DNA from: Halobaculum magnesiiphilum
GTDB lineage: Archaea; Halobacteriota; Halobacteria; Halobacteriales; Haloferacaceae
Assembly (NCBI RefSeq): GCF_019823105.1
Contig: NZ_CP081958.1
Coordinates: 1,984,001-2,048,000 of the forward strand
Length of the DNA stretch: 64,000 nt
Direction: 5' to 3'
Each line of letters opens with the position of its first letter. Positions within the stretch are counted from its first letter, which is position 1. Position numbers and translations under genes: made by a program. Positions 45,898-55,786 of the stretch are shown here, one piece after another. The notes beneath the pieces were generated by a model. The model made no database searches and was not told where the DNA came from. It saw nothing but the letters and a program-made list of their open reading frames with translations.

Positions 45898-48800
45898 ATG
45901 AGTCAGGTCTCCGAGGGGCAGGACGTCGACGCGTTCCTCAGTTTCTACCGGACCTATTACAGCGACGACATCGCCCGCCTCGCCCAGAACTACCCGAAGG
46001 AACAGCGGTCGCTGTACGTCGAGTACGACGACCTGTACACGTTCGACCCCGACCTCGCCGAGCGCTACCTCAACCGCCCGGGAGAGATGCAGGAGATCGC
46101 CGAGGAGGCGCTGCGCACGTACGACCTCCCGGTCGACATCTCGTTGGGACAAGCCCACGTCCGCATGCGCGGGCTCCCGCGCGAGAACACGATCGACATC
46201 CGCGCCATCCGGGTCAGCAACGACCACATCGGATCGATGGTCGCGGTGCAGGGGATCGTCCGCAAGGCGACGGACGTGCGCCCAAAGATCACCGAGGCGG
46301 CCTTCGAGTGCCAGCGCTGCGGGACGATGACGTACATCCCGCAGAACGACTCCGGCTTCCAGGAGCCCCACGAGTGCCAGGGCTGCGAGCGCCAGGGCCC
46401 CTTCCGCGTCAACAACAACGAGTCGAAGTTCATCGACTCCCAGCAGCTCCGCGTTCAGGAGTCGCCCGAGGGCCTCCGCGGCGGCGAGACGCCCCAGAGC
46501 ATCGACGTGAACCTCGAGGACGACGTGTGCGGGCAGGTGACCCCCGGCGACCACGTCACCGTGGTCGGCCGCCTGGAGATGGAGCAGGTGACCTCCGGCC
46601 AGGAGAAGACGACCGTCTTCGACCCGTACATGGAGGGGGTCTCGCTCGTCATCGAGGACGAGGAGTTCGAGGACATGGATATCACCGACGAGGACAAACA
46701 GGAGATCCTCGAACTCTCGAACCACGACGACATCTACGAGGAGATGGTCGCCTCGGTCGCGCCGTCGATCTACGGCTACGACCAGGAGAAGCTCTCGATG
46801 ATCCTCCAGCTGTTCTCGGGGGTCACGAAGCACCTTCCGGACGGGTCGCGGATCCGTGGCGACCTGCATATGCTTCTGATAGGAGACCCGGGTACGGGGA
46901 AGTGCGTCGACGGGGATACCCGAGTGACGCTCGCGGACGGTCGTGACATTCCGATCCGGGAGCTCGTCGAGTCGAACCTCGACGAACCGAAGCCGGTCGA
47001 CGACGGTGTGTGGGACGAGGCGGGATTCGAGGTCCCGTCGCTTGGGTCGAACGGGGAGATCGAGTCGCGGCGGGCGACGAAGGTGTGGAAGCGGGAGGCG
47101 CCCGACGAGATGCTCCGGATCCTGACGAGCAGCGGTCGGGAGCTGGAGGTGACGCCGTCGCACCCGCTGTTCGTTCGCGCGGGTGAGGGACACCACGCAG
47201 TTCGTGCGGACGAACTCTCCGAAGGGGCGACGATCGCTGCCGTATCGGAACCGCGAACCGACGGCGGAACGGCTACTGTCCGCCCGTCGGAGCCTGAATT
47301 CCGTCAGACATCGATGACCCGTACGTGGGAACGGATCGTGACCATCGAACACGTTCAACCCGATGACGACTGGGTGTACGACCTCGAAGTAGCGGGGACT
47401 CACAGCTACATCTCGAACGGGATCGTCTCGCACAACTCCCAGATGCTGTCGTACGTTCAGAATATCGCTCCGCGGTCGGTCTACACGTCAGGGAAGGGCA
47501 GCTCAGCGGCAGGGCTTACTGCCGCAGCTGTTCGCGACGACTTCGGCGACGGCCAGCAGTGGACGCTGGAGGCCGGAGCACTCGTACTCGCCGACAAGGG
47601 GATCGCCGCCGTCGACGAGCTGGATAAGATGGATTCGAACGACAGGTCGGCAATGCACGAAGCGCTCGAACAGCAGTCGTATCACCCGGAATCCGAGGTG
47701 TTCCTCGCGGATGGCCGACGCGTTCGGATCGGCGAGTTCGTGGACGAGCGAATGGCTGCACGCTCGGACGACGTGGTAGAGGGTGTCGACTGTGAGATCC
47801 TCCCGATCGAGGACGCCGGCGTTCACTCCGTCGACTTCGAGACGAACGAGACGACGAAGCTCCCGATCGATCGGGTGAGCAGACACGAGGCGCCCGAGGA
47901 GTTCGTTCGTGTGACGTTCTCGAACGGCCGCGACGTGCTCGTGACCCCGGAGCATCCGATGTTCGTCGATGACGGCGGTGTGACCGGAACGATCGAAGCG
48001 GAGAACATCGACGAGGGGGCGTTCGTGCCGGCACCCCGGAAACTCCCCAACTCCGCGAGCCCGGTCAGTCTGACGGACGAACCCCACGTCGGGAAAGAAC
48101 GCGATGTTACCCTCCCGGACGAACTGAGCGGTGACCTCGCCGAGATCCTCGGCTTCCTCACGGCCGAGGGCCACTCGTACGCGGGATCGGCACACGAGAT
48201 CGGGTTCTCGAACCAGGACGAACGGCTTCTCGCGCGGATGGACGAGTTGATGTCCCGCGTGTTCGGGTTTATGAGTACCGACACGACGAACGCTGCGGGA
48301 ACAGTAACTCAGCGATGGGTGTCGACCAAGCTCTACCGTTGGTTCGAGGAGAACTTCCCCGAATTCATGCACACCGCTCGCGAGAAACGGGTTCCCGCCC
48401 GGGTCCTCGGTGCGTCCGAGGAACAGATCAGACGGTTCCTCGTCGGAGCGTTCGCGGGCGACGGCGGCGTCGAGAGCGAGGCGATGTCCTTTTCTACGGC
48501 CTCGGAGGGATTGGCGCGCGACTACGCCGACGCGCTCGCGAAGCTCGGGATCGCCTCCCGGATCCACCACGACACCGCGGAGGACGCCTGGAAGACGTAC
48601 GTGATGGGTGATTCGACCGACCGATTCGTCGACGCTGTCGTCGACCCGGCAGACGAGCGTCACGAACAGGCGGAGGAGTTCGTCGACCGAAGCGAACGGA
48701 CTCCGCGTCATCACGACGTACTGCCGACGAGCGCTGCCCGAGAGATCCGGGAACTGCGAACGCTTACCGGACTCGGGAAGACGGGGCGGTTCCGCGAGAA

Positions 48801-50115
48801 CCTGGACGAAGGGTACGGGGTTCGCGTCGAAACCGTCACCGGGGAGGTTGAGACGCTTCACGAACGGATCGGGACCGTCCGCGACGCGATCGACCGTGCG
48901 GACGATCTGGGATCGATCCGGTCGGCGGTCGGTTGGTCGGGACGGCAACTCGCGGAACAGCTGAACGGCGTCACAACGAGCCGAATCCACTACGCCGAGA
49001 AAGGCGGATACGACTCCGAGACGCGTGAGAACCTGACCGAACGCGCAACGACGGCGGTTCGCGAGGCCATGGACGAGGCAGAACGCCGGACTGAGGCGCT
49101 TGCCGACCGATGTGACCTACGGTACTACCGTGTAACCGACGTCGAGACCGTCGCGAACGACGGCGAATACGAAACCGACTGGGTGTACGACATCACCGTC
49201 GAGCCGACGAACACGTTCGTCAGTTCGGGGGTAGCGCTCCACAACTCGATCTCGATCTCCAAGGCCGGGATCAACGCGACGCTGAAGTCCCGTTGTTCGC
49301 TCCTCGGCGCGGCCAACCCGAAGTACGGCCGCTTCGACCAGTACGAGCCCATCGGCGAGCAGATCGACCTCGAACCGGCGCTCATCTCGCGGTTCGACCT
49401 CATCTTCACCGTCACGGACAGCCCCGACCCGGACCACGACGCGAAGCTCGCGGACCACATCCTGACGACGAACTACGCGGGCGAGTTGAACACCCAGCGC
49501 ACGGAGATGGCGGCCTCGAACTTCACCCAGGAGGAGGTCGACGAGGTGACCCAGGAGGTGGCGCCGGTCATCGACGCCGAGCTCCTGCGCAAGTACATCG
49601 CGTACGCCAAGCGCAACTGCTACCCCACGATGACCGACGAGGCGAAGGCGGCGATCCGCGAGTTCTACGTCGACCTCCGGGCGAAGGGGGCCGACGAGGA
49701 CGCCCCCGTGCCCGTCACCGCCCGGAAGCTGGAGGCGCTCGTCCGGCTCTCGGAGGCCAGTGCGCGGGTCCGCCTGTCGGACACCGTCGAGGAGGAGGAC
49801 GCGACGCGGGTGATCGAGATCGTCCGCTCGTGTCTCCAGGACATCGGCGTCGACCCCGAGACCGGACAGTTCGACGCCGACGTGGTCGAGACCGGGACCA
49901 GCAAGAGCCAGCGCGACCGGATCAAGAACATCAAGGAGCTGATCGGCACCATCGCCGAGGAGTACGAGGACGAGCCCGGCGCGCCCGTCGACACGATCCT
50001 GGAGCGGGCCGACGAGGTCGGGATGGACGCCGGCAAGGCCGAGAAGGAACTGGAGAAGCTCCGGACGCGCGGGGAAATTTACGAGCCGCAGTCCGGCTAC
50101 GTGCGGACGACGTAA
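45898..50115 (+). CDS. mcm: MCM replicative helicase precursor with two inteins
   Basis: A 1405-aa precursor; removal of the inteins (residues 336-513 and 594-1116) leaves a 704-aa MCM, the normal haloarchaeal size. The N-terminal domain has a zinc site with Cys138/Cys141 and Cys160/Cys163. The AAA+ core: Walker A GDPGTGK ending at residue 335, then C-extein SQMLSYV, Walker B VDELDKM near 575, and the MHEALEQQ/SISISKAG segment split by intein 2; after it LISRFDLIFTV and the winged-helix C-terminus. It is the replication-fork helicase and is inactive until spliced. Confidence 0.95.
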   Translation: MSQVSEGQDVDAFLSFYRTYYSDDIARLAQNYPKEQRSLYVEYDDLYTFDPDLAERYLNRPGEMQEIAEEALRTYDLPVDISLGQAHVRMRGLPRENTIDIRAIRVSNDHIGSMVAVQGIVRKATDVRPKITEAAFECQRCGTMTYIPQNDSGFQEPHECQGCERQGPFRVNNNESKFIDSQQLRVQESPEGLRGGETPQSIDVNLEDDVCGQVTPGDHVTVVGRLEMEQVTSGQEKTTVFDPYMEGVSLVIEDEEFEDMDITDEDKQEILELSNHDDIYEEMVASVAPSIYGYDQEKLSMILQLFSGVTKHLPDGSRIRGDLHMLLIGDPGTGKCVDGDTRVTLADGRDIPIRELVESNLDEPKPVDDGVWDEAGFEVPSLGSNGEIESRRATKVWKREAPDEMLRILTSSGRELEVTPSHPLFVRAGEGHHAVRADELSEGATIAAVSEPRTDGGTATVRPSEPEFRQTSMTRTWERIVTIEHVQPDDDWVYDLEVAGTHSYISNGIVSHNSQMLSYVQNIAPRSVYTSGKGSSAAGLTAAAVRDDFGDGQQWTLEAGALVLADKGIAAVDELDKMDSNDRSAMHEALEQQSYHPESEVFLADGRRVRIGEFVDERMAARSDDVVEGVDCEILPIEDAGVHSVDFETNETTKLPIDRVSRHEAPEEFVRVTFSNGRDVLVTPEHPMFVDDGGVTGTIEAENIDEGAFVPAPRKLPNSASPVSLTDEPHVGKERDVTLPDELSGDLAEILGFLTAEGHSYAGSAHEIGFSNQDERLLARMDELMSRVFGFMSTDTTNAAGTVTQRWVSTKLYRWFEENFPEFMHTAREKRVPARVLGASEEQIRRFLVGAFAGDGGVESEAMSFSTASEGLARDYADALAKLGIASRIHHDTAEDAWKTYVMGDSTDRFVDAVVDPADERHEQAEEFVDRSERTPRHHDVLPTSAAREIRELRTLTGLGKTGRFRENLDEGYGVRVETVTGEVETLHERIGTVRDAIDRADDLGSIRSAVGWSGRQLAEQLNGVTTSRIHYAEKGGYDSETRENLTERATTAVREAMDEAERRTEALADRCDLRYYRVTDVETVANDGEYETDWVYDITVEPTNTFVSSGVALHNSISISKAGINATLKSRCSLLGAANPKYGRFDQYEPIGEQIDLEPALISRFDLIFTVTDSPDPDHDAKLADHILTTNYAGELNTQRTEMAASNFTQEEVDEVTQEVAPVIDAELLRKYIAYAKRNCYPTMTDEAKAAIREFYVDLRAKGADEDAPVPVTARKLEALVRLSEASARVRLSDTVEEEDATRVIEIVRSCLQDIGVDPETGQFDADVVETGTSKSQRDRIKNIKELIGTIAEEYEDEPGAPVDTILERADEVGMDAGKAEKELEKLRTRGEIYEPQSGYVRTT
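46903..47436 (+). mobile_element. MCM intein 1, mini-intein in Walker A
   Basis: A 178-aa intein inserted between the Walker A Lys and Ser of MCM. It begins CVDGDTRVTLADG (Cys1, block A), has block B TPSHPLFV, block F DWVYDLEVAGTHSYISNG and ends VSHN before a Ser. There are no LAGLIDADG motifs between the splicing blocks, so it lacks a homing endonuclease. Confidence 0.92.
47677..49245 (+). mobile_element. MCM intein 2, full intein with LAGLIDADG endonuclease
   Basis: A 523-aa intein between EALEQQ and SISISK of MCM. It begins with Ser1 (SYHPESEVFLADG), has block B GRDVLVTPEHPMFV, the endonuclease motifs ILGFLTAEG (near residue 747) and LVGAFAGDGG (near 848), a helix-turn-helix-like segment (SVGWSGRQLAEQL-like, near 1020), then block F DWVYDITVEPTNTFVSSG and the end ALHN before Ser. 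Endonuclease acidic residues (Glu in AEG, Asp in GDG) are intact, so it may still be mobile. Confidence 0.92.
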
Positions 50116-50121
50116 CCGCCG

Positions 50122-50406
50122 ATGGATAGAATCTCCGCGCTCCGGAACGTCGAGGACGCCATCCGCGCGTTCGAGGACGGCGAGGCCGACCTCGCCGACA
50201 CCGAGCGTCGCGTCGCCACCGTGCTGCGGACGTACGCCACCGAGTTCGAAGTGGATGACCGCCGGGCGTATCGCGCCGTCGACGGCCCCGGCGAGGGGCG
50301 CGTCGTCGTCGCCGGCGACCCCGCGGAGGCCCGCGAGCGGATCGCCTCGCTCGCCGCCGTCGACGACGGGATGGATCCCGAGGACGTGACGGTCGAACCG
50401 CTGTAG
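50122..50406 (+). CDS. Small conserved haloarchaeal protein downstream of MCM
   Basis: A 94-aa acidic protein. It has an N-terminal helix (MDRISALRNVEDAIRAFEDG) and a C-terminal part with AYRAVDGPGEGRVVVAGDPAEARERIA. No known motif. It begins 6 bp after the MCM stop, so it is probably translated from the same mRNA. Family not recognised. Confidence 0.7.
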   Translation: MDRISALRNVEDAIRAFEDGEADLADTERRVATVLRTYATEFEVDDRRAYRAVDGPGEGRVVVAGDPAEARERIASLAAVDDGMDPEDVTVEPL

Positions 50407-50443
50407 GGCACGGCGGTCTCGACTTCGATACGCGATTCAGTAC

Positions 50444-50451
50444 GTTTATAT
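50444..50451 (+). promoter_or_regulatory. TATA box of the MinD-like gene cluster
   Basis: GTTTATAT centred about 27 nt before the ATG at 50474. It separates this cluster from the MCM transcription unit. Confidence 0.6.
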
Positions 50452-50473
50452 TGGAAACCGAACCTGTGAGCGT

Positions 50474-50812
50474 ATGCTACTCGTCGTGACGTACTCGCGC
50501 GGGGCGCGGACGACGCTTCGCAACGTCTGTCGCAGCCACGACGACACCGTCGTCCGTCGGTTCGGTCGGGCGGCGCTGTTCGCCGAGACGGAGTTGGGCG
50601 CCTTCCTCGCGTGTCGCCTCCGTGCGAAACACGGGACCGACGTGCAAGTCGAGCAGACGGAGCCGTTCAACGAGTTCGCGGCGGTGCGACCGGCGGTCCG
50701 GGAAGCGGCCGTCGCCTACGAGGACCGAGACGCGCCGAGCACGCCGTACACGAAGTTCGCCGTCGGCGCCGACCACCCCGATCCGGCGGCGATGCGCGAC
50801 GCCGAGCTGTGA
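50474..50812 (+). CDS. Conserved haloarchaeal protein, first gene of a MinD-like cluster
   Basis: A 112-aa protein beginning MLLVVTYSRGARTTLRNVCR. It looks like a small alpha/beta domain (strand LLVVTYS, then helices, with VVRRFGRAALFAETELGAFLACRL). It overlaps the next gene by GTGA, so both are translationally coupled. Family not recognised; the coupling suggests a role with the coiled-coil protein and the MinD-like ATPase. Confidence 0.7.
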   Translation: MLLVVTYSRGARTTLRNVCRSHDDTVVRRFGRAALFAETELGAFLACRLRAKHGTDVQVEQTEPFNEFAAVRPAVREAAVAYEDRDAPSTPYTKFAVGADHPDPAAMRDAEL

Positions 50813-51732
50813 CCCGGCGGTTCGCCGATCGTGTCGCTCCGGCGGAGTCGGGGGAGCTCCGACGCGCCGCGGCCGCGGGAACCGTCGACGGCGCGTGCGC
50901 CGCGCTCGAACTCGATCCGGATGACCCGCTGGCGACGCTGACGGATCGGCCGCCGTCGCTGTGGCGCGCGCTCGCCGCCGCCGCCCGCGAGCGCGGTCTT
51001 GAGCACCCCGCCGACGACGAGCGTCGTCGGCTCCGAACCGCCCTCGACGAATCGGCCGAGGAGATAGGGGCCGCCGACGGCGACGACGCCGCGGACGCCG
51101 CGAGCGACGCGTTGGCCGCCGCACGGCGTCGAGCGGCGGCCGCCGGCACCGACGTGGATCGGCTTCGTGAGCGGGCGGCCACGCTCCGCGGGCGGCTCGC
51201 GGAGGCGCGCGAACGGACGACCCACGACGCGAGCGACGATGCGGACACGAGCGCCACCGCGGACGCGGACGCGACGACGGTCGACTCGCTGCGGGCGGAG
51301 TTCGAGGCGGCGACGCGGGCGCTGAGCGAGGCCGAGACCGAGCGCGTCGCCGCCGACCAGGCGCTTGCCCGCGCCGCCGAGCGTTCGCGGTCGGTTCGCG
51401 ACGCCCGCGAGCGACGCCTCCGGTTGCGCGACGCGCTCGCCAACCGCCGGCGGGAGGCGCGACGCGACCTCGCCCGCGAGGTGTATCCGGCCTTCGCGAA
51501 CGCGGTCGCGGCGTTTCACTCCGAAGTCGATCCAGTCGACGGCAGGGCCGCGGACGCCGAGGTCGGCGACGACCCCGGCGACTTCGACGGCGACGCGGTC
51601 GTCGCCCACGCGGCCGCGATCCGCATCGCCGAGCGTTCCGACCCGGTCGTCGTGGGAGTCGACCGCTTCGTCGACGCGACCGCGGCACGCGACTGGCTGT
51701 GCACGCCGGTCGTCCTCGTCGGAGCCGAGTGA
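50809..51732 (+). CDS. Coiled-coil protein in the MinD-like cluster
   Basis: A 307-aa acidic protein with a GTG start overlapping the previous stop. A globular N-terminus (about 1-70) is followed by a long heptad-like helical region (about 100-220; many RAATLRGRLAEARER and LSEAETERVAADQ repeats) and a C-terminal domain (FHSEVDPVDG, then PVVVGVDRFVDATAARDWLCTPVVLV). The coiled coil should form dimers. Unknown family; no enzyme motif. Confidence 0.7.
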   Translation: MTRRFADRVAPAESGELRRAAAAGTVDGACAALELDPDDPLATLTDRPPSLWRALAAAARERGLEHPADDERRRLRTALDESAEEIGAADGDDAADAASDALAAARRRAAAAGTDVDRLRERAATLRGRLAEARERTTHDASDDADTSATADADATTVDSLRAEFEAATRALSEAETERVAADQALARAAERSRSVRDARERRLRLRDALANRRREARRDLAREVYPAFANAVAAFHSEVDPVDGRAADAEVGDDPGDFDGDAVVAHAAAIRIAERSDPVVVGVDRFVDATAARDWLCTPVVLVGAE

Positions 51733-51785
51733 GAGCCACGACCCACGCCCACGGTGTCCGCGGTGACGCCGGGTCGCGTGCGGAC

Positions 51786-51792
51786 GTTTATC
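51786..51792 (+). promoter_or_regulatory. TATA-like site inside the MinD-like cluster
   Basis: GTTTATC about 28 nt before the ATG at 51817, indicating an internal promoter and supporting that ATG over an upstream GTG at 51754. Confidence 0.5.
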
Positions 51793-51816
51793 GCCGATAC
51801 CGGGACCAGCACGCCC

Positions 51817-52596
51817 ATGCCGGTCACGCTCGACTCGACGGTCACGACCGCCGGCGGCGTCGCGCTCGTCGCCGTCCGTGTCCGCAACACGGAGCCGGTC
51901 GCCTGCCGCGTTCGCATCGAGAACCGCCTTCACGGCCCGGTGCTCCCGCCGCGGCGACACGGCACGCCCGAACCGGGCTGGTCGGACGACGGATACGACG
52001 GGGTCGTCGCCGCCGACTCCGAGCTCGCGCTCGGGTACGCCTGTCGGGTCGCCGTCGACGAACGCGGTCGGTCCGACGAACACCCATCGAGCGACGACGC
52101 GCCCGTCGAGCTCGTCGCCGTCGGGGACCCGTCGGCCGCGGAGGCCGACCCGATGGACACCGTTATCGGCGACTTGGGGGACCACAGACCGCCACCAGAC
52201 GCGGTTTCGGTCGCCGCCGGCGACGAGGCTTCCGCCGCCCCCGCCGCGACCCCTGACCGCCCGAGCGACCCATCCGGAACGGCGGCCACTCCCGACCGAT
52301 GCGGGGAGTCGAAGTCGCCGCCGGAGGCGACGGCGGCGCCGACGGACGTTCCCCCGGCGGTCGCGCGATATCTCGACACCGTCGAGGGTCGGATCTCGCG
52401 GGCGGAAACGTTCGCGGACGGGTCGGTCGCGGACGCGACGGAACTGCTCGAGGCGGACATCGATCCCGACGGTCTGGCCGAACTCGTCGCGCTGGACGCG
52501 ACCGCGTTGGAGGGGCTCGCCGCCCGCGCCGACTCGCTGGCGACCCGGGCGGTGACCGTCGACGTGCCGACCGACGCGCTGGAGCGCCTCGCGTGA
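51817..52596 (+). CDS. Conserved haloarchaeal protein before the MinD-like ATPase
   Basis: A 259-aa protein. The N-terminal about 110 residues form a beta-rich domain (MPVTLDSTVTTAGGVALVAVRVRN..., VRIENRLHGPVLPP). A low-complexity acidic/Pro linker (about 115-195) follows, then a C-terminal helical domain (AVARYLDTVEGRISRAETFAD... LEGLAARADSLATRA). Its stop overlaps the ATPase start by GTGA. Unknown function; probably a partner or regulator of that ATPase. Confidence 0.7.
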   Translation: MPVTLDSTVTTAGGVALVAVRVRNTEPVACRVRIENRLHGPVLPPRRHGTPEPGWSDDGYDGVVAADSELALGYACRVAVDERGRSDEHPSSDDAPVELVAVGDPSAAEADPMDTVIGDLGDHRPPPDAVSVAAGDEASAAPAATPDRPSDPSGTAATPDRCGESKSPPEATAAPTDVPPAVARYLDTVEGRISRAETFADGSVADATELLEADIDPDGLAELVALDATALEGLAARADSLATRAVTVDVPTDALERLA

Positions 52597-53255
52597 TCGT
52601 CGCCGTCGCCGGCGGGAAGGGCGGTGTCGGAAAGTCGACGCTGGCGTACAACCTGGCGGGCGCGCTTGACGGGCTCGTCGTCGACGCCGACCTCACGATG
52701 GCGGACCTGCCGGGCGGTCGCGAGCGCGGGCCGGATCTCCACGACGTGCTCGCGGACCGGGCGACGCCCGCGGAGGCCGTTCGGCCGGGGGCGGTGGACG
52801 TGCTCCCGTGCGGTCGGACGCTCGCGGGGGCGCGACTGGCGGACGTGCGCCGACTCCGGGAGGCGGTCGCCGTCGGCGGCTACGAGTACGTCGTGGTGGA
52901 CTCGCCGGCCGGCCTGCGGGTCGACGCGGGCGCGCCGTTGGCCGTCGCCGACGCCTGTCTCCTCGTCGCGTCGCCGACGCGGTGGGCGCTGGCGGACGCG
53001 ATCGCGGCCCGCGAGCTTGCCCGCGAACTCGACTGCGGGCTCGCGGCCGTCGCGCTCAACCGCACCGTCGAGGACCCGCCCACGGAGGCGGTCGGACGCG
53101 CGCTCGGGGCGCCCGCCACCGCGGTGCCTGCGGACCCGCGGCTCGCGCGTTCGCTCGCGACCGAGACGCCGGTGGTGGAAACGGACGCCGAGTCGGCGGC
53201 CGCGCGGGCGGTCGATGAACTCGCCGCGGCCGTTCGGCGGTGTGCGGTCGCGTAA
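52593..53255 (+). CDS. MinD/ParA-like P-loop ATPase
   Basis: A 220-aa SIMIBI-class ATPase. The deviant Walker A KGGVGKST is at residues 9-16 with the signature Lys9; the switch I Asp in VVDADLTMADL near 30; Walker B YVVVDSPAGL near 105. It is short for MinD and has no obvious membrane-targeting tail, though a C-terminal amphipathic helix (RAVDELAAAVRR) exists. Members form dimers that switch between DNA or membrane and cytosol. In this context it is the last gene of an uncharacterised cluster. Confidence 0.88.
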   Translation: MIVAVAGGKGGVGKSTLAYNLAGALDGLVVDADLTMADLPGGRERGPDLHDVLADRATPAEAVRPGAVDVLPCGRTLAGARLADVRRLREAVAVGGYEYVVVDSPAGLRVDAGAPLAVADACLLVASPTRWALADAIAARELARELDCGLAAVALNRTVEDPPTEAVGRALGAPATAVPADPRLARSLATETPVVETDAESAAARAVDELAAAVRRCAVA

Positions 53256-53316: not shown

Positions 53317-54177
53317 TCACTCCTCACGTAGCTCGATGTACGACGAGCGGAGCGTAACGGGAGTCACGTCCGCAACGTCGGCCGCGGCCGCCTGCGTGCA
53401 GTCGGCGTCCGCGTCGCGCGCGGCGGCGTACAGACACGCCGCGGCGACGCCGCAGGGGTTCCGTCCGTTCGTGAGCCCCTCGTCGCGGGCGACATCGAGG
53501 TACTCGCGGGCGGCGCGTTCGACCGCGGCATCGAGCCCGAGTTCCGTGGCGAACCGGGGAAGATACTCGACGGGATCGATGGGTCCGACGGGGAGGCCGA
53601 GCTCGCGGTTCATCGCGTCGAAGGCGGCGCGGAGCTCGTCGGCGTCGGCCTTCGCCTCGGCGACGAGCTCGCCGCGGGTGCGCGAGACGCCGGCGACCCG
53701 GCAGGCGACGTACACCGCCGCGGCGGCGAACCCCTCCAGCGAGCGTCCGCGAAGCAGGTCGGCGTCCTGGGCCGACTCGAACAGCGAACACGCCTGATCG
53801 CGCAGCGACTCGGGAAGCCCGGCCGCCGAAACGATCCGCCGGATCTCGGTGAACCCGTACACCTTGTTTCGGTCTCGCTTCGAGGAGATCCGCGCCCGCG
53901 TGTGCTGTCTGCGCATCCGGGCCCACTGCCGGCGCTTGCGCCCCTTCACGCGCGTGTGTCCGATCTCCGTCGAGAGGCCGCGGTCGTGGCGCGAGCGCGT
54001 GAGCGGTGCCCCGGTCCGCCTCGGATCGCAGTCGTCGTCCGCGAAGCTGCGCCACTCGGGGCCGCGGTCGATGCGGTCCGCCGAGACGACGAGCCCGCAC
54101 TCGCTACACACCGCCTCGTCGCCGTCCGCGTGCACTCGACCCTCGCATTCCGGACACGCCGTCGTGCTCGTTGCCAT
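53317..54177 (-). CDS. tfb: Transcription initiation factor IIB (TFB)
   Basis: A 286-aa TFB. The N-terminal zinc ribbon has Cys8/Cys11 and Cys24/Cys27; the B-finger/linker region follows (EWRSFADDDC, GAPLTRSRHDRGLSTEIG). Two cyclin folds occupy about 100-190 and 195-286, the second carrying the BRE-recognition helix. The linker has KGRKRRQWARMRRQ, strongly basic as in haloarchaeal TFBs. Haloarchaea have several TFBs; which promoters this one serves is unknown. It converges on the MinD-like gene. Confidence 0.93.
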   Translation of the reverse strand: MATSTTACPECEGRVHADGDEAVCSECGLVVSADRIDRGPEWRSFADDDCDPRRTGAPLTRSRHDRGLSTEIGHTRVKGRKRRQWARMRRQHTRARISSKRDRNKVYGFTEIRRIVSAAGLPESLRDQACSLFESAQDADLLRGRSLEGFAAAAVYVACRVAGVSRTRGELVAEAKADADELRAAFDAMNRELGLPVGPIDPVEYLPRFATELGLDAAVERAAREYLDVARDEGLTNGRNPCGVAAACLYAAARDADADCTQAAAADVADVTPVTLRSSYIELREE

Positions 54178-54316
54178 ACTCGAACGTCGGTCCCGAACCC
54201 ATACTTATGTGTGGGGGGATCCGCCGCTCCCGACCCGCTCGAGCGCGCTCGAACGTACCGATAACCGGTACGTTACTCACAACAGTCACGTTATCGTATC
54301 GACTCTGACGATCGAA

Positions 54317-54323
54317 TTTATAT
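54317..54323 (+). promoter_or_regulatory. TATA box of the HTH-like gene
   Basis: TTTATAT centred about 26 nt before the ATG at 54346, which supports that start. Confidence 0.6.
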
Positions 54324-54345
54324 CGGATGGCGACCGAGCGTGACC

Positions 54346-54861
54346 ATGGCGCTCCCCGACATCGCCGCCGGGATCGAGGTGACCGCACGTCAGGAGACGC
54401 GCGGCGTCGCCTCGGTCGACGACACCGGCGGCGACCTCGCCTCCCGGCTCGCCCCCCACGCCGACGCGCTGGCGTGTACGCCCGAGGCGGCCGCGGTGGT
54501 GCTCGATCACCACGCCCGCGGCCACAGCGTGGGCGCGAGCGCACGCGAGGCCGGCGTCGCCGCCGTGACGGCCGCGAAGGTCCTCCACCGCTGCGGCGTG
54601 CAGGGCGTCTCCCCGCTGGCGCCGACCGCCCGACGCGTGGTTCGCGACTGGCTCGCCGGCGAGATCCCGCGTGCGGACGCGCTCGAACTCAGCGGCGGCG
54701 AAGAGGCGGCGTTCGCGCTCGCGAGCTACGTCGAGTCACACGAGCCGGTGCCGGAGCTGGCCGACGTCGCCCGCGGCGCGTTGGCCGACGGCGGGAACGC
54801 GAGCGTGGAGAAGCGCGACGCCCTCGGGGAGACGATGAGTTCCGTCTCGGACCTGCGCTGA
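54346..54861 (+). CDS. Possible helix-turn-helix protein, haloarchaeal
   Basis: A 171-aa protein. A central stretch, LDHHARGHSVGASAREAG then VTAAKVLHRCGV (about residues 55-85), reads as a helix-turn-helix. The C-terminal half is helical with REWLAGEIPR-like and ALASYVESHEPVPELADVARG segments. Family not recognised; a DNA-binding regulator is plausible. The leaderless-type TATA at 54317 fits. It is divergent from tfb and ends in a duplicated hairpin. Confidence 0.65.
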   Translation: MALPDIAAGIEVTARQETRGVASVDDTGGDLASRLAPHADALACTPEAAAVVLDHHARGHSVGASAREAGVAAVTAAKVLHRCGVQGVSPLAPTARRVVRDWLAGEIPRADALELSGGEEAAFALASYVESHEPVPELADVARGALADGGNASVEKRDALGETMSSVSDLR

Positions 54862-54994: not shown

Positions 54995-55786
54995 CTATTC
55001 GCTGCGCACGCGGTCGACACCCGCGCCGAGCCGCCCGATCACCCCGCGGTCCTCGAACTCGACCCCCAGTTCCGTCTCGAACAGCGTTTCCGTCGCGGCG
55101 ACGACGCCGGCGGCGAACGCGTCCGTGCCGAGACACGCCGGCGCGGCGGCGAACTCGCTCGGCCCGCGAGGGATCGTCGCGTCCGCGTCGGCCTCGGCGC
55201 TTCCGGACTCGTCGCTTGACCCGGCGGACCCGGGAGCGGCGACGGCGACGCTCGCGGGGTCGCCGTCGGGCGCGTCGATGTCGCGGAGCAGGTCCCGCTG
55301 TCGTCGCCGGCCGTCGGCGCCGTGGTCGGTGTCGGGGGCGACGATCGCGACGCGGTCGACGGCGTGGACCGCGGCGATCGCCGGGTTGGCGGCGACCGGC
55401 GGAACGTCGACGATCACGTGGTCGGCGCGGGCGACGGCCTCCGCTGCTCGGTCGGCGAGTACCTGCGCGGCGTCGTCGTCGGTCGCGCGGGCGAGGCGCT
55501 CGAAGGGCGCGTGTGCCGGCGCGAGTTCGATGCGGCCGTCAACGGCCGCATCGAGGTCGTACAGCCCGTCGGCGAGCGGTCGGTCGGGATCGAGACACAG
55601 CGCCGTCACGTCGGGATCGATGCGGCCCGAAACGAACTCGCCGAGCCCCTGCGTCGCGTAGGCGGCGTCGAGAACGACGACCTCGCGGCCGTCACGCGCG
55701 AGCGCGGCGGCACACTCGACGGCCGTTCGGGTCGTGCCCGCGCCGCCGACGGCGCCGACGAACGCGAGCGATCGGATGCTGGCCAT
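54995..55786 (-). CDS. ParA/MinD-like protein with degenerate P-loop
   Basis: A 263-aa protein of the MinD/ParA fold. The P-loop reads AVGGAGTTRT (residues 12-21) in place of KGGxGKST, so both lysines needed for ATP hydrolysis are missing. Strand and Walker B-like segments remain (VVVLDAAYATQGLGEF near 37, DHVIVDVPPVAANP near 122). Gly/Asp-rich loops near 165-195. It may bind nucleotide without hydrolysis or act as a structural partner. Divergent from the HIT side; 133 bp separate it from the HTH-like gene. Confidence 0.8.
   Translation of the reverse strand: MASIRSLAFVGAVGGAGTTRTAVECAAALARDGREVVVLDAAYATQGLGEFVSGRIDPDVTALCLDPDRPLADGLYDLDAAVDGRIELAPAHAPFERLARATDDDAAQVLADRAAEAVARADHVIVDVPPVAANPAIAAVHAVDRVAIVAPDTDHGADGRRRQRDLLRDIDAPDGDPASVAVAAPGSAGSSDESGSAEADADATIPRGPSEFAAAPACLGTDAFAAGVVAATETLFETELGVEFEDRGVIGRLGAGVDRVRSE

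Follow-up and report, generated by a model that had tools for sequence, protein, structure and literature searches.

MinD-like ATPases have been described in the haloarchaeon Haloferax volcanii. MinD2 and MinD4 are reported to serve motility machines there, and MinD2 shares an operon with a small conserved partner, HVO_0596, for which a predicted interface has been published. Archaeal MinD proteins have no clear equivalent of bacterial MinE, according to one study (PMC11621097). HVO_0225 has been named MinD1 (PMC11588486, PMC11621097); this protein has no described function, and its neighborhood is not described in the accessible portions of the haloarchaeal MinD literature. Here we examine five plus-strand genes that follow mcm, the gene for the replicative helicase, in a 64,000-nucleotide (nt) stretch of Halobaculum magnesiiphilum DNA (contig NZ_CP081958.1, positions 1,984,001 to 2,048,000; hereafter, the window). 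They occupy window positions 50122 to 53255 and encode, in order, proteins of 94, 112, 307, 259, and 220 amino acids (aa), the last being a MinD-like ATPase; a preliminary description had given this order, and its coordinates were confirmed. Gene junctions and occurrence across genomes favor dividing the cluster into three units, mcm-DUF7854, DUF7855-DUF7856, and DUF7857-MinD1, of which the last is a near-obligate pair of neighbors.

The four accessory proteins belong, in gene order, to the consecutive Pfam families of unknown function DUF7854 to DUF7857. Because each matches its own family far above the cut-off (27 to 32 bits; scores in Table 1), the genes are not chance open reading frames. 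The preliminary description recognized none of these families, which are all unnamed, although Pfam already lists them; searches of open-licence PMC papers found neither the likely accessory locus tags nor the DUF names. Judged by position, the ATPase is the haloarchaeal MinD1: the available H. volcanii records place mcm at HVO_0220, MinD1 at HVO_0225, and TFB at HVO_0226, the same flanks as in the window. The cluster had been called uncharacterized, which holds for the function of MinD1, but the ATPase is already named in Haloferax. What is new is the assignment of a partner and the modular split.

Conservation was assessed in a draw of 145 Halobacteria genomes, with MinD1 called at an E value of 1e-45; 80 named loci, found through DUF7855 and hence biased towards it, were used for gene order and junctions only. 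DUF7857 and MinD1 lie within 5 kb of each other in all 101 genomes holding both, with DUF7857 lacking MinD1 in four genomes and MinD1 lacking DUF7857 in one; G129 has MinD1 and only a weak DUF7857 match. The two genes overlap by exactly 4 bases in 64 of the 66 named loci with both genes and in 11 of 12 other loci, the two exceptions among the named loci being L062, which is gapped, and L090, where the DUF7857 match is split and its second piece also overlaps by 4. DUF7855 and DUF7856 form a second coupled pair, within 5 kb in 88/89 genomes (in the exception, G121, the genes are on two contigs), and among 78 named loci their overlap measures 4 bases in 62 and 1 base in four more. These junctions are the GTGA overlaps already noted in the window (50809-50812 and 52593-52596), and their conservation agrees with the translational coupling proposed at that time. 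As internal controls, the gapped DUF7854-DUF7855 and DUF7856-DUF7857 junctions show a 4-base overlap in 0/74 and 2/72 loci, respectively.

The gaps before DUF7855 (67 nt) and DUF7857 (84 nt) each contain a TATA-like box, so that there are probably three transcription units rather than one. The hexamer richest in AT lies between -35 and -26 in 66/81 loci for DUF7855, in 27 of the 41 loci with a resolved start (the remainder were dropped) for DUF7857, and in only 4/73 for DUF7854; a box spacing of 26 to 35 nt is expected for leaderless haloarchaeal transcripts. The start of DUF7857 was taken as the ATG at 51817, about 30 nt past its box, rather than the GTG at 51754. Of 74 loci measured, 58 have DUF7854 starting at most 30 nt from mcm; in 11 the distance exceeds 300 nt. 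Where parts of the cluster have relocated, the breaks fall at DUF7856|DUF7857 in five genomes and at DUF7854|DUF7855 in four (in one of these, G131, the genes are on two contigs); no break inside a coupled pair was seen among the 145 genomes besides the contig case of G121.

The genes also separate in their presence across genomes. DUF7854 was found in 90 genomes (two matches, in G012 and G067, being partial or below the cut-off), DUF7855 in 93, DUF7856 in 89, DUF7857 in 105, and MinD1 in 102. All five occur in 81 and none in 31, and in 72 of the 81 complete genomes all lie within 6 kb of DUF7855, in line with the expected co-conservation of the ATPase and its accessory genes. The single complex proposed in the preliminary description is not borne out: MinD1 occurs without DUF7855 in 19 genomes and DUF7855 without MinD1 in 10, G029 and G047 have DUF7855 alone, and G018 and G054 have DUF7855-DUF7856 without the DUF7857-MinD1 pair. 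We read eight mcm loci (L182 to L189) in genomes lacking the full set, and in five of them mcm stood without any gene that we sought. At L183 the matches were limited to DUF7858 and the second ParA-like gene; at L187 a DUF7854 fragment was accompanied by just a weak match to the second ParA-like gene; and L189 retained DUF7854 to DUF7856 with DUF7856 shortened. Since mcm persists in genomes without it, the block is dispensable. In a wider draw of 246 genomes from the phylum, DUF7857 exceeded the cut-off in 33, all from the same order or closer, and one genome outside that order gave a match below the cut-off; H. volcanii, as a control, was positive for all four DUFs in the profile searches.

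The ATPase exceeds the Pfam cut-offs of PF10609 (41.6 versus 27.1 bits), PF01656 (32.3 versus 25.4 bits), and PF13614 (30.3 versus 27 bits) and has the deviant Walker A motif GGKGGVGKST. Its start codon is secure because the overlapping GTG leads directly into the first strand and the Walker A motif. Across 37 of 37 MinD1 sequences, GKGGVGK, T16, D31, D33, and D103 are invariant, so that both the deviant Walker A motif, with its signature lysine, and the aspartate of Walker B are complete. Some profile matches started only at profile positions 19 to 26, which raised the idea that these members had lost Walker A; it was rejected for the three loci read (L131 to L133), where the motif is intact and followed by an insertion. 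A CpaE-like NCBIfam model was reached weakly by 16 of the 37. No conserved amphipathic membrane-targeting tail is present, 23 of the 37 sequences stopping at most 10 residues past the fold, and the longer tails are not conserved, several of them being arginine-rich. The neighbors of MinD1 match DUF families only, in a Pfam scan that included no search aimed at MinE or MinC, and PADLOC models of anti-phage defence systems, run against the cluster, gave a single weak match (LmuB, 14 bits), to a coiled coil. In contrast to MinD1, a further MinD-like protein encoded in this genome (L160, G000:C1:2599186; terminus FLGRLFRSS) has a long acidic C-terminal extension ending GGGFLGRLFRSS, likely a membrane-targeting tail.

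The model of DUF7857 comprises an immunoglobulin (Ig)-like beta sandwich (residues 1 to 108), a low-confidence linker, and a helical C-terminal domain (180 to 258), both domains being confident, as befits the beta-rich/helical protein first described. DUF7855 was modeled with a predicted local distance difference test score of 95 as a beta-alpha-beta-beta-alpha-beta core with C-terminal helices. Fold matches to residues 1 to 66 of DUF7855 were UreE, NikR, PII-like, and Cas2 chains (Z ≤7.3), and those to residues 1 to 108 of DUF7857 were adaptor and sugar-enzyme beta domains (Z ≤7.8), with the helical C terminus barely covered; because these scores lie in the range that the tool calls common, we read no function from either fold. 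Profiles of DUF7855, DUF7856, and DUF7857 found nothing significant among solved structures. The coiled coil attributed to the third protein was upheld, its 3.5-residue periodicity over residues 96 to 225 being equalled by none of 300 shuffles; of the 117 family members, 90 contain a long segment lacking both Gly and Pro, and the best period is 3.4 to 3.7 in 50 of these. Some DUF7856 members weakly match unrelated coiled-coil families. DUF7855 is almost without acidic excess, an unusual property in the window, where five of the 53 other genes reach so low a value and TFB comes near it; this near-neutral charge is a hint of nucleic-acid binding.

To place the pair in a wider context, we fetched 25 loci in which it looked either detached from mcm or present as an additional copy; two of these (L143 and L146) proved to sit at mcm. 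A MinD-like gene bearing DUF7125, assigned by family search for L041 and by similarity for the other loci, is close by in 15 of the 25, TrkA_C membrane proteins are nearby in nine, with a TrkA_C gene directly 5' of DUF7857 in five, and at least one gene of a pilin/HerA/DUF7310/DUF7311/T2SSE block is found in 12. None of the three kinds of gene occurs at L036, L039, L153, L155, or L156. In a tree of 96 MinD1 sequences, 17 rows with this second setting and L153 form one clade (support 99/94); for six of the 17, the second MinD-like gene is the only such feature in the stretch read. Since its MinD1 rows form one clade, the simplest account of the second setting is a single origin followed by spread, and convergent recruitment to the pilus block is unsupported by the tree. 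As this clade carries the pair beside a second MinD-like gene, DUF7857-MinD1 is separable from mcm. G058 and G141 each carry two copies, one per setting. At the clade loci read, DUF7857 is mostly short (about 120 aa) and without the helical domain. The block itself is conserved in L041, L144, L157, and their relatives, where it consists of TrkA_C proteins, a pilin-like protein, a GLUG/CARDB surface protein, a HerA-like ATPase, DUF7310, DUF7311, and a T2SSE ATPase, and the DUF7125 MinD-like gene often accompanies it.

MinD1 is most likely a ParA/MinD switch that lacks a membrane-targeting tail and places or loads a cargo with DUF7857. We tentatively regard DUF7857-MinD1 as the functional core, an ATPase with its candidate partner, DUF7855-DUF7856 as a separable second module, and DUF7854 as traveling with mcm, an assignment to which we give a little less than an even chance. 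By analogy with other ParA/MinD proteins, MinD1 would form an ATP sandwich dimer and cycle between dimer and monomer, while DUF7857 would be made in step with it and act as a regulatory or adaptor partner. The Ig-like domain, kept in every lineage, may touch the ATPase, and the variable helical tail may touch the cargo or an anchor. Because MinD1 has no membrane tail, its surface would be either one that DUF7857 supplies or the nucleoid, to which the arginine-rich tails of some members might point, and the pair would there place or load its cargo. In mcm-linked lineages that cargo, or a nucleic-acid scaffold, may be DUF7855-DUF7856, in which a coiled-coil protein is coupled to one that is rich in arginine, near neutral in charge, and ferredoxin-like in its predicted core.

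Several observations weigh against this interpretation. In H. volcanii, quadruple minD deletion had no effect on growth or division (PMC11588486), and motility was not poorer than in the strain lacking only minD2 and minD4 (PMC11621097), so that no positioning phenotype is known for MinD1; its role is dispensable for growth and division in that organism. Four genomes of one genus keep DUF7854 to DUF7857 with no MinD1 anywhere at the stated E value, and the Natronomonas loci L117 and L119 likewise have no MinD1 locally, which shows that DUF7857 is able to outlast its ATPase neighbor. The fold matches of DUF7855 and DUF7857 are generic. Deletion of the MinD2 operon partner HVO_0596 is reported to give no phenotype, which makes neighborhood a weak guide.

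The proposal that all five proteins form one dynamic complex, in which MinD1 positions the replisome or chromosome through the coiled-coil protein, would account for the many complete and compact clusters, for the abutment of DUF7854 on mcm, and for a coiled coil that is real. We nevertheless think it quite improbable, because the modules separate in presence and in place and have separate promoter-like boxes, DUF7854 to DUF7857 persist without MinD1 in one genus, mcm is kept wherever the block is missing (L182 to L188, seven of seven read), and the quadruple deletion grew normally. The link to replication suggested in the preliminary description is unproven: its evidence is proximity to mcm, and one MinD1 clade holds the pair in a different setting. 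The genes might instead be small operons without a shared function, held together by chromosomal inertia, with MinD1 working alone or with distant proteins. In favor of this are the promoter-like boxes between modules and the unrelated TFB, DUF7858, and second ParA-like genes, which are conserved neighbors as well (41/80 named loci have these together with mcm and all five cluster genes). This explanation, which we consider rather unlikely, leaves unexplained why DUF7857 and MinD1 stay adjacent after the pair has moved and why their exact overlap is conserved.

That the pair serves a membrane or surface machine such as a type IV pilus, in the manner of TadZ/CpaE, FlhG, and MinD4, its address at mcm being historical, also appears unlikely to us. 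It draws on the DUF7125, TrkA_C, and pilin-block genes at relocated or second-copy loci, including the TrkA_C genes directly 5' of DUF7857, and on the reported work of haloarchaeal MinD2 and MinD4 on motility machines. However, all such MinD1 proteins fall in one clade, which points to one relocation and not to repeated convergence; six of its 17 rows have only the second MinD-like gene in the stretch read; the DUF7125 gene of the window genome lies elsewhere, without a pilus block nearby; and MinD1 has no membrane tail. A further reading, doubtful in our estimation, is a portable tail-free cassette of ATPase plus adaptor that is plugged into different cargo systems, with DUF7857 setting the cargo. 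The cargo would be a nucleic-acid-binding coiled-coil module (DUF7855-DUF7856) at mcm in most lineages and a pilus/TrkA_C cluster in another; in the second setting, the helical C-terminal domain of DUF7857 is missing. For the preferred reading of DUF7857-MinD1 as a core pair, the conserved overlap and adjacency single out one specific partner candidate for MinD1, and lineages with contrasting arrangements offer ground for testing the partner idea; MinD1 is predicted not to bind the membrane unaided.

Table 1. Features of the mcm-MinD1 region (window coordinates)
Feature	Coordinates	Strand	Remarks
mcm, replicative helicase	45898..50115	+	1405-aa open reading frame; neighbor, outside the MinD1 pair
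DUF7854 protein, 94 aa	50122..50406	+	PF25252, 116 bits; starts 6 nt past the mcm stop; unit 1 (mcm-DUF7854)
TATA-like box TTTATA, ~30 nt 5' of DUF7855	50430..50473	+	Probable leaderless promoter; AT-richest-hexamer position
DUF7855 protein, 112 aa	50474..50812	+	PF25253, 197 bits; predicted ferredoxin-like core, conserved arginines, nearly neutral; unit 2
DUF7856 coiled-coil protein, 307 aa, GTG start	50809..51732	+	PF25254, 178 bits; GTGA overlap with DUF7855; unit 2
TATA-like box GTTTATCG, ~30 nt 5' of DUF7857	51780..51816	+	Probable leaderless promoter; AT-richest-hexamer position
DUF7857 protein, 259 aa, ATG start	51817..52596	+	PF25256, 123 bits; unit 3; probable MinD1 partner
MinD1 ATPase, 220 aa, GTG start	52593..53255	+	Pfam ParA/CbiA/AAA_31 above cut-off; unit 3

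The flanking genes have features of their own. From its sequence and intein motifs, mcm presumably contains two in-frame inteins, one of them in the ATP-binding loop. Inteins of haloarchaeal MCM have already been published (PMC10643990). On the other side of the cluster, convergent TFB and DUF7858 genes (53317-54861) are its long-conserved neighbors. The second ParA-like gene beside them (54995-55786, minus strand) has both Walker A lysines replaced in 51 of 51 relatives, with the pattern AxGG[AV]G[TAV]TR, and its product looks like a conserved ParA-like pseudo-ATPase.

Among described systems, the locus shares its gene order with five Haloferax relatives (L055, L066, L067, L072, and L077), and the orthology to H. 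volcanii MinD1 rests on these relatives and on gene order; in the Haloferax loci, a gap of more than 1 kb, which may hold a further gene, separates mcm from DUF7854. The MinD2-HVO_0596 and DUF7857-MinD1 pairs are alike in joining a haloarchaeal MinD to a conserved small partner gene and differ in that HVO_0596 lies downstream of its minD, whereas DUF7857 lies upstream of MinD1 and overlaps it. The best solved relatives of the MinD1 profile are the archaeal MinD structures 1hyq, 1g3q, and 1ion (E values of 3e-41, for 1hyq, to 5e-35), followed by FleN/FlhG entries. Unlike curated archaeal MinD, MinD1 falls below the cut-off of NCBIfam TIGR01969 (125 versus 201.75 bits), and unlike classical MinD of the MinC/MinE system, it has no C-terminal amphipathic membrane-targeting sequence. 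FlhG/FleN and TadZ/CpaE are ParA/MinD ATPases that place surface machines; in contrast to both, MinD1 has no fused domain, its 220 aa comprising the ATPase only.

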